DNA of 32,635 nucleotides from an uncultured bacterium (GTDB taxonomy: Bacteria > Chloroflexota > Anaerolineae > J036 > Brachytrichaceae), in assembly GCA_903921365.1 (NCBI GenBank), contig CAIXPS010000516.1, forward strand, positions 1 to 32,635. Reading direction: 5' to 3'. The position numbers and the translations under genes are program-made. Shown piece after piece: positions 10,673 through 12,566 of the stretch. Numbering within the stretch: position 1 is the stretch's first letter; each line of letters opens with the position of its first letter. Under the pieces are notes generated by a model that saw only the letters and a list, made by a program, of their open reading frames with translations, had not been told where the DNA came from and ran no database searches.

Positions 10673-11695
10673 TTACGGATTGTTCGACATGGTTTGTTCG
10701 ATGAAGGCATCGATGGTCGCGCGCGATGGGATGCCGGCGCGACCGCCGGGTTGGGTAGCCTTTAATGCTGCTGCCGCAGAGGCTACCTGCACCGCTTTGC
10801 TTACGGGTTCGCCCTGCGCGATGCACGCGGCATAGACGCCGTGAAACACATCGCCGCAGCCAGTGGTGTCGACGACGTTGACGGAGTAAGCTGGCACATG
10901 CGCGACGGGTGCGCCAGAAGCACTGGTCGCGCCTGGCGCACTTGGTGCGTACCAGCAACCGCGTTCGCCGGCGGTGACGACGCAAGTGGCGCGACCGCCC
11001 GACAGACGGCGCAACCCCTGCACCATTTCAACCGGATCAGCTGCGCCGGTCTTGCGTTGGGCGAAACCAATTCCGACGATCAGGTGATCGATTAACGGCG
11101 CCAGCAGTTCCGAGCGTGGCTCCGTCTCGCGCTCGATGTCTGCGACGACCGGGATGCCGCGAGCATGCGCCAATTCGATTGCGCGCAGCCCACCCTCAAC
11201 GGCGTGGTGATCCACGAACAACACGCGGCACCGGGCAATCAGCGCATCAGTGATCTCTTCCGCCGCGCGCCACTGCACGCTGACGAACGACGCCATGATG
11301 CTGCGCTGCCCATTATTACGGTCGACGATGATCATCGAATGGATGGGGCGCGCCTCCGGATGAATCACCACCGGCGCACAGTCCACCCCTTCGCGCGCGA
11401 ATTCGTTGAGCGTGTACTGCGACAGGTCGTCATCGCCCAGTATCCCGGCGTAGGCGGCGCGCGCGCCCACCCGTGCCGCGGCGACGAGCGCCGTGCCGAC
11501 GAGTCCGCCGCCGTGGCGTTGCTTATCGAGCACTGCCACCTTCATGTCGGGCAGCGGGTAATGCTCGACGTAGATCAAGTCATCGACCGTGACTGCGCCA
11601 AAGCCGAGCACATCCCATGTAGTCTGGTTATCGCTGTGTAGGGGCAATCCCTGGCGGTTGCCCTCCATTCTCCATGTGGGCTGGTTGTCTGTCAT
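10673..11695 (-). CDS. PfkB-family sugar kinase
   Basis: A 340-residue ribokinase-fold kinase. Visible motifs are the N-terminal WDVLGFGAVTVDDLIY, the substrate-binding RHGGGLVGTALVAAARVGA (GG hinge region), ILGDDDLSQYTLNEF, and the C-terminal signature NVVDTTGCGDVFHGVYAA with catalytic Asp282; the usual GAGD is GCGD here. It phosphorylates a sugar or keto-sugar using ATP. The N-terminal ~26 residues (two DNQ-x-TW motifs) are encoded by a tandemly repeated DNA element, so the true domain starts around DNQTTWDVLG. ATG 11695 is chosen because an ATGA overlap and AGGA spacing precede it. It sits between the aldolase and the isomerase-like gene, suggesting that it makes the phosphorylated substrate of the aldolase. 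Confidence 0.88.
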   Translation of the reverse strand: MTDNQPTWRMEGNRQGLPLHSDNQTTWDVLGFGAVTVDDLIYVEHYPLPDMKVAVLDKQRHGGGLVGTALVAAARVGARAAYAGILGDDDLSQYTLNEFAREGVDCAPVVIHPEARPIHSMIIVDRNNGQRSIMASFVSVQWRAAEEITDALIARCRVLFVDHHAVEGGLRAIELAHARGIPVVADIERETEPRSELLAPLIDHLIVGIGFAQRKTGAADPVEMVQGLRRLSGGRATCVVTAGERGCWYAPSAPGATSASGAPVAHVPAYSVNVVDTTGCGDVFHGVYAACIAQGEPVSKAVQVASAAAALKATQPGGRAGIPSRATIDAFIEQTMSNNP

Positions 11696-11776
11696 GCGAG
11701 TCCTGCTGTGTAGGGGCAATCCCTTGCGGTTGCCTGCCGTTCCCCATGTGGCTGGTTATCTGTCATGCGAGTCCTG
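11633..11776. repeat. ~71-bp direct tandem duplication at a gene junction
   Basis: Plus-strand unit 1 begins GCTGTGTAGGGGCAATCCCT at 11633 and unit 2 repeats it at 11705. The companion block TGTCATGCGAGTCCTGC occurs at 11690-11706 and again at 11761-11776 (there followed by GAG). The period is 71-72 bp. Each unit contains the hairpin GGGCAA-N10-TTGCCC, which looks like a REP-type palindrome. A third, partial copy is visible in the kinase coding sequence (CCATGTAGTCTGGTTATC, 11615-11632). Copies differ by several substitutions and a one-base indel that shifts the frame of the first copy. Confidence 0.85.
11692..11766 (-). CDS. 24-codon minicistron created by tandem duplication
   Basis: An ATG at 11764-11766 overlaps the aldolase stop as ATGA and opens a 24-codon frame (MTDNQPHGERQATARDCPYT then AGLA). 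Its own TGA (11692-11694) again overlaps the kinase ATG as ATGA. The start region (CAGGACTCGC then ATG) is identical in both copies, so ribosomes leaving the aldolase gene could re-initiate here and then again at the kinase. The peptide ends AGLA like the aldolase, because the duplicated DNA carries the aldolase tail. It is probably a by-product with no peptide function, but it may keep translational coupling alive. Confidence 0.45.
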   Translation of the reverse strand: MTDNQPHGERQATARDCPYTAGLA

Positions 11777-12566
11777 CGAGTTGCAGCGCCTCTTGTGCCG
11801 TCTTGCCGTCGTGTAGAACAGCCTTGAATGCGTGCACCGCTTTGCCGATGTCAGTCAGCCCCCAGATATTCCGGCCGATAGTAGCGCCGCGCGCGCCCGA
11901 CTTCACAACCTCGCTCATCATGTCGAGGGCGAGTTCGAGTGTGCTGGACTGTGGGCCGCCCGCCGCAACCACCGGCACCGGACAGTCGGCAACGATCTGT
12001 GCAAATGCCGCAATGTCGCCGCAATAGGGCGTCTTGACGACGTCTGCGCCGACCTCGACTGCGCAACGCGCGGCCCAGGCGATGTCCTCCGGCGCAAATG
12101 ACACAGTTGGCGCGGCGCTGAAGTCGCGCGGGTAAATGTGGCAGATGACGGGGATGTCGAAGCGAGCGGCTTCGCGCACGGCATCGGCGACGCGGCGCAG
12201 ATAGGCTGCCTCGCTATTCCCGCGCACGAACGCCGCAATCGCGAAGGCATCGGCGCCAAGGCGCACGGCGTCTTCCGGTGTGGCGACTTGTTCCATCGCG
12301 GTGTCGTCGACGCGGATGGTGCTGCTCTGGATAATCAGCGGCACCGCGCCGGCATGCGGCGCCCACGCGCTCATGGCGATGCCTTTGTGCATCGTCACCG
12401 CGTCGGGTTGTGCGGCGACGATGGCCGCAAGGGTGGGTTGTATATGGCGCAGTCCTGGCGGGAGCCCCTGCCCATAGGCGATGAAGTGGTCGACGGCGAC
12501 CGAGCACAGGCGTCCGGAAGGATGCGAGAAGATGCGATTCAGGCGAATTTGCTTTCCAATGTTCAT
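11763..12566 (-). CDS. DhnA/LacD-type class I (Schiff-base) aldolase
   Basis: A 267-residue TIM-barrel aldolase of the DhnA/FbaB/LsrF group. Visible are the early VAVDHF motif, TMHKGIA, ICHIYPRDF, the Schiff-base lysine in GADVVKTPY (Lys178), the phosphate-binding AAGGPQSS and GATIGRNIWG. Such enzymes cleave or form phosphorylated keto-sugars (fructose-1,6-bisphosphate, tagatose-bisphosphate, sulfofructose-phosphate, autoinducer-2 phosphate, amino-shikimate precursors). The frame is open to 12674, but conserved sequence begins at MNIGKQIRL (12566); no clear ribosome site precedes it. It is the first gene of the minus-strand operon, divergent from the FCD regulator, and its stop overlaps the next ATG. 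Confidence 0.87.
   Translation of the reverse strand: MNIGKQIRLNRIFSHPSGRLCSVAVDHFIAYGQGLPPGLRHIQPTLAAIVAAQPDAVTMHKGIAMSAWAPHAGAVPLIIQSSTIRVDDTAMEQVATPEDAVRLGADAFAIAAFVRGNSEAAYLRRVADAVREAARFDIPVICHIYPRDFSAAPTVSFAPEDIAWAARCAVEVGADVVKTPYCGDIAAFAQIVADCPVPVVAAGGPQSSTLELALDMMSEVVKSGARGATIGRNIWGLTDIGKAVHAFKAVLHDGKTAQEALQLAGLA

Follow-up and report, generated by a model that had tools for sequence, protein, structure and literature searches.

The junction between an aldolase gene and a sugar kinase gene in an uncultured, Anaerolineales-like Chloroflexota bacterium is duplicated in tandem together with a short palindromic repeat, and a 24-codon minicistron now lies between the two genes. In the reading to which we give a probability of about 0.75, a REP inserted with duplication of its target, a 72-bp duplication followed, and the two events made both the minicistron and an extension of the kinase while translation of the kinase stayed coupled to that of the aldolase. 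The elements themselves (REP, RAYT, and ATGA overlap) are of known kinds; what is less expected is the duplication of target DNA that accompanies REP insertions, and the outcome this has repeatedly had at gene starts. The window, meaning the whole stretch of DNA analyzed (32,635 nucleotides), is contig C516 of a single 6.88-Mb draft genome in 603 contigs (G000), which forms the evidence base and whose nearest named relatives are Anaerolineales/Chloroflexi genomes from metagenomes.

Anatomy of the duplicated junction

The genes at the junction are read from the minus strand as a chain of aldolase, minicistron, and kinase, in which an ATGA joins each gene to the next. The DhnA/DeoC-LacD-type aldolase (11763–12566, minus strand; 267 aa) was identified from the open reading frame list and Pfam PF01791 (1.1e-27), and matches NCBIfam PRK07226 at 5.4e-60, a score under that model's cut-off. 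Its stop TGA lies within the first ATGA (11763–11766), the ATG of which opens the minicistron (MTDNQPHGERQATARDCPYTAGLA*; 11692–11766, minus strand). That frame ends in the second ATGA (11692–11695), where the PfkB-family sugar kinase starts (10673–11695, minus strand; 340 aa, including a 19-residue repeat-encoded extension; Pfam PF00294, 3.3e-37), its sequence beginning MTDNQPTWRMEGNRQGLPLHSDNQTTWDVLGFG. The open reading frames and direct reading of the sequence confirm this arrangement, a 24-codon minicistron with ATGA on both sides, as it had been described in a first-pass annotation.

Tandem Repeats Finder places the strongest array of the window by far at 11633–11777 (period 72, 2.0 copies, 90% matches, score 239). 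Alignment divides it into an aldolase-proximal unit of 71 nt (11705–11775, minus strand) and a kinase-proximal unit of 72 nt (11633–11704, minus strand), in agreement with the period of about 71 bp noted at first pass. Each unit contains the aldolase tail, an AGGA five bases upstream of the ATG, the ATGA, a block D (GAYAACCAGNCNACATGG), and a 26-bp palindrome. The SD-like AGGA was thus duplicated along with the ATG, and both ATG1 and ATG2 are preceded by it. The units differ by several substitutions and by a one-base indel (CC versus CCC, 71 versus 72 nt), which, as had been claimed, shifts the first copy out of the kinase frame.

Block D occurs three times, twice in the kinase frame and once, a base shorter, in the minicistron. 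The short copy, D1 (GATAACCAGCC-ACATGG; 11744–11760, minus strand), carries the frame-changing indel. Both D1 and D2 (GACAACCAGCCCACATGG, encoding DNQPTW; 11672–11689, minus strand) align as duplicated target blocks, while D3 (GATAACCAGACTACATGG, encoding DNQTTW; 11615–11632, minus strand) is the resident copy of the target and adjoins the kinase, as seen when the insert is removed and a gap-free alignment with the relative G001 results. The N-terminus of the kinase, with its two DNQ-x-TW motifs, does derive from repeat DNA as proposed.

Pattern search and DNA hairpin prediction locate the two palindromes on the plus strand, at 11710–11735 (GTAGGGGCAATCCCTTGCGGTTGCCT) and at 11638–11663 (GTAGGGGCAATCCCTGGCGGTTGCCC), the latter with an unpaired GTAG tag and a stem of 6+2 bp. 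The GGGCAA-N10-TTGCCC form ascribed to the copies is exact in the kinase-proximal one, but the other ends in TTGCCT.

A GTAG-type REP and its RAYT genes

The 26-bp palindrome is a genuine GTAG-type REP with neighboring RAYT genes. Folded as single-stranded DNA, GTAGGGGCAATCCCTTGCGGTTGCCC leaves GTAG unpaired next to a 6+2-bp stem, ....((((((.((.....)))))))), and an unpaired GTAG with a short imperfect palindrome is the published layout of this class (PMC3733652). The REP inventory, built from pattern searches of the genome, comprises 47 places that match the REP with at most three mismatches and 64 that match the broader pattern GTAGGGGC-CCTTGCG-GCCC with at most two, against 0–1 for a reversed-pattern control. 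Four relatives of the same genus hold 1–7 REP places at one mismatch, compared with the 47 of this genome, and RAYT matches number four here and zero or one in each of those relatives.

A RAYT-like gene on contig C474 has an exact REP ~130 bp downstream. It matches NCBIfam NF047646 with an E value of 3.4e-16 and 59.4 bits against a curated cut-off of 80, and was recognized through its REP neighborhood, having been missed by a Pfam Y1_Tnp profile search of the genome. A second copy, on C112, is truncated by the contig edge and is 96% identical to the first in DNA. A REP-bearing insert lies ahead of its start; 72 bp of the insert match the C474 REP and its flanks at 93%, and it duplicates ~13–15 bp around the RAYT ATG. 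The near identity of the two genes (C474:2275–2853 and C112:3–179; L101 and L002) suggests a recent RAYT duplication.

Two further features of REP distribution deserve mention. Contigs C145, C276, C517, and C520 (L053, L054, L057, and L059) stop within REP arrays of period 51 or 44, which implies that such arrays break the assembly and that true copy numbers are higher. Separately, three genus members carry a REP at the same site, with a similar left flank ending in gtgctgaacgc (G000 C119:6233, G001 C38:1523, and G003 C120:6126; L052, L128, and L127); judged from the shared position, this is evidently an old, vertically kept insertion.

The junction in relatives

The junction was compared across seven distinct relatives that have the aldolase next to the kinase and a readable junction: G001 (L069), G004 (L072), G002, G003 (L071), G037, L073, and L074 (CP070811). 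L070, L075, and L078 were left out because a kinase match is absent, and L076 and L077 because their gene order differs. The repeat is present in zero copies at all seven junctions. This falls within the first-pass prediction of 0–3 copies, although relatives with one to three were not found among these seven. The aldolase/kinase ATGA overlap is already there in G001, G037, and CP070811, while the remaining readable relatives have gaps; its retention, suspected earlier, is borne out by its presence at both new junctions. When 128 bp are removed from the window, the resulting MTDNQTTWDVLGFG aligns with the nearest relative, G001 (MIDHHPRFDVLGFG), over 47 nt without a gap.

The relatives also lack the in-frame extension DNQPTWRMEGNRQGLPLHS, which amounts to 57 nt or 19 codons (11633–11689, minus strand). 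Their kinases begin just a few residues ahead of a conserved (W/F)D(V/I)LG. In full-length matches, solved PfkB structures align from residue ~22–33 of the 340, the best of them, sulfofructose kinase 7ag6, from residue 33. Together with the short N-termini of the relatives, these alignment starts place the 19-residue extension outside the catalytic fold. The claim that a REP-like repeat extended a protein and inserted a cistron is upheld in that the repeat is a GTAG REP and the relatives are without it. Overall, the first-pass observation is confirmed, and its interpretation is partly supported and extended.

Target duplications at other REPs

Isolated REPs elsewhere in the genome (n = 32) were searched for direct repeats shared by the two flanking 60-bp segments, at a score of at least 36. 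Such repeats flank 6 of the 32, versus 0 of 20,000 random positions in the same genome; most isolated REPs (25/32) are without a flanking duplication. The 60-bp windows were chosen because a 100-bp control was contaminated by natural tandem repeats, and an initial random control was set aside because REP arrays abounded at the loci it was drawn from. Of the six high scorers, C602 and C576 were rejected as clean target duplications, being other, BIME-like repeat types with REP-like flanks. The other four are clean duplications of unique target DNA, of 36 bp at C533, 37 bp at C520, 36 bp at C285, and 30 bp at C316.

The C533 locus is what we take, from reading its sequence, to be an FGGY-type kinase (...LLDPVIPGGETTYERPQTEQPQGIAPTQPVTAGGETTYERMMAL...), and the C285 locus, by the same reading, presumably a GH38-type enzyme (...LQALAAQVDTQASEGNRKGLPLQEGLQALTAQVDMQA...). 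Exactly 25 residues are missing in relatives at both, in G004 and G002 at C533 and in G003 at C285, corresponding to 75 bp made up of the REP, a short filler, and one copy of the target. The two target copies at C533, C285, C316, and C520 differ by ~10–17%, so these are not fresh events. At these loci (L141, L008, L096, and L142) the REP between the diverged copies stays near consensus; the insertions could be old with a conserved REP, or copying could be error-prone.

The REPs of G034, G036, G028, G033, and the genus relatives yielded no unique-target duplications, only REP-like partner arrays, and the REP singletons of G034, G036, G028, and G001 are likewise without duplications of unique sequence. 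Given its absence at REP singletons of more distant genomes, the footprint may be lineage-specific, or visible solely for younger insertions. No description of target duplications at REPs was found in the open-access literature searched. A different arrangement is seen at C213:51304–51416 (L003), where an in-frame tandem of 87 bp, formed by two REPs close to the C-terminal end of a long open reading frame, adds PGSRIPGNREGLPLQEVTASEVVNGRFTV repeats; relatives end near REVVKGRF.

Minicistrons at other gene starts

Similar REP insertion events appear to have taken place at two further gene starts, those at C316 and C520, so that a repeat of known kind would be producing this side effect recurrently. 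The C316 insert doubled a 30-bp stretch containing the ATGA common to an upstream gene and a sugar-isomerase-like gene, and the upstream ATG reads MKISAFQGQPRATARDCPYTERVKELAK before terminating in the isomerase's ATGA. The same isomerase occurs in G003 and G004 with the insert absent, and there the upstream gene ends in similar residues (NLGGVPYKTHRV). At C520, a lipoprotein-like gene provides the ATGA in which the upstream copy, reading MNTSRNKGVGAMPCACPSAVMVTQR, comes to its stop.

The start-to-start distances at the three gene starts are 71, 83, and 74, all 2 mod 3, and a distance of 2 mod 3 is what makes the TGA of the ATGA fall in the upstream frame. By chance this would happen at three of three loci with p = 1/27; counting just the two loci that played no part in forming the idea, p = 1/9. 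The insert ahead of the RAYT gene on C112 breaks the rule: there the distance is 100 (1 mod 3), and the upstream frame, closing after ten codons, does not end in the RAYT start. The regularity at three loci hints that upstream frames running past the gene start are selected against, which is not proof of coupling.

Origin of the minicistron

Between operon genes, a stop and a start combined in one ATGA allow termination–reinitiation coupling. The ancestral locus would have been such an operon, aldolase-ATGA-kinase, into which a GTAG-type REP inserted just within the kinase start, probably mobilized by the genome's own RAYT transposases, whose catalysis is assumed here. The insertion would have duplicated the adjoining target, block D, and so added 57 bp in frame, or 19 codons of kinase. 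A further duplication of 72 bp would then have copied the aldolase tail, the SD-like AGGA, the ATGA, D, and the REP, although the order of the two steps may have been the reverse. The second REP copy is probably a product of this duplication rather than of another independent insertion, since both REPs have the same short filler on either side, unlike those at other loci. Loss of one base in unit 1 (CC for CCC) would have made a cistron of its own from what was otherwise to lengthen the kinase further in frame: because the stop/start overlap lies within the duplicated stretch, and copy 1 has 71 nt instead of 72, the upstream ATG reads a 24-codon frame ending in the kinase ATGA. Ribosomes finishing the aldolase would be expected to restart at ATG1, terminate after 24 codons, and restart again at ATG2. 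Two successive stop/restart hand-offs would thereby replace one, keeping the kinase coupled to the aldolase, with the minipeptide as a by-product.

A neutral origin deserves serious thought, even if we doubt it on balance. REP hairpins could promote replication slippage and so generate tandem copies with their flanks, and arrays of REP plus flank do occur throughout this genome at many periods (44, 45, 51, 55, 77, 83, and 87 bp) and are known elsewhere (PMC3733652; PMC3116915). The ATGA frame would then be a one-in-three accident, an outcome requiring no selection, and the kinase would be read from ATG2, which owns a site through the AGGA copied with it, or from a later codon. Slippage of an existing REP alone, however, does not explain single REPs that lie between target duplications when both are absent in relatives. 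That all three REP inserts in which the start of a protein is duplicated at a gene junction terminate in an ATGA also speaks, weakly (1/27), against accident.

That the insertion and indel harm kinase expression and the locus is becoming a pseudogene is improbable: the upstream ATG is indeed out of frame with the kinase and a REP hairpin follows the kinase start, but the 340-aa kinase frame is unbroken, matches PfkB in full, and is 77% identical to that of G001, and the extension measures exactly 19 codons. Even harder to credit is a doubling of one unit during assembly. Several contigs of the 603-contig draft do end within REP arrays, yet the same architecture recurs at independent loci, and the substitutions and indel that separate the units make the short-read assembly error considered at first pass unlikely.

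With insertion and duplication preferred over these accounts, the most fitting view of the minicistron is that REP insertion with target duplication yields such frames repeatedly as a by-product, and that they persist where reading or coupling is preserved. A broader proposal is tentative: that REP/RAYT insertion in this lineage, unlike IS200/IS605 transposition, proceeds with a long, variable target duplication of roughly 15–40 bp. In one step it might then duplicate a start codon and yield a minicistron whose stop lies in the ATGA of the gene it displaces; within a gene, it would add the repeat together with a peptide in frame.

Relation to known systems

How REPs spread is described as an unresolved question (PMC8266576). 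Insertions that are flanked by target duplications, and whose sites are empty in relatives, provide a concrete, testable footprint of that spread, and a long target-duplication footprint, if true, would constrain its mechanism. They also outline a simple route by which a selfish repeat could give rise to a new small open reading frame and a protein extension with the stop/start overlap of the operon intact, the same outcome being met at three gene starts in one genome.

With GTAG-type REP/RAYT (TnpAREP) systems the present case shares the unpaired GTAG tag and imperfect palindrome, dispersed copies, tandem arrays with flanking DNA, and a RAYT beside REPs. It differs in that several singletons here lie between duplications of 30–37 bp of unique target, with relatives lacking both at two of them. 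IS200/IS605 relatives are reported not to make larger target duplications (PMC2817692), and the duplications of 30–37 bp at C533, C285, C316, and C520 depart from IS200/IS605-like single-strand insertion. Stop and start overlap in an ATGA at both junctions of the aldolase-minicistron-kinase chain, as in coupled operon genes, except that here the overlap has been copied and a minicistron interposed. Intragenic and tandem REPs have already been published (PMC3733652; PMC3116915), and GTAG repeats have been reported in Chloroflexi and inside open reading frames, N-termini included (PMC3733652). Rickettsia palindromic elements similarly sit in frame within coding genes and add residues (PMC3733652), but they have another sequence and host, whereas here the target is also duplicated and a separate minicistron arises. 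Finally, the tandem REPIN clusters of Pseudomonas fluorescens SBW25 are likewise built of flank-REPIN-flank units (PMC3116915); the SBW25 unit is a REP doublet, whereas the elements described here are REPs that occur singly, both where genes meet and within coding sequence.
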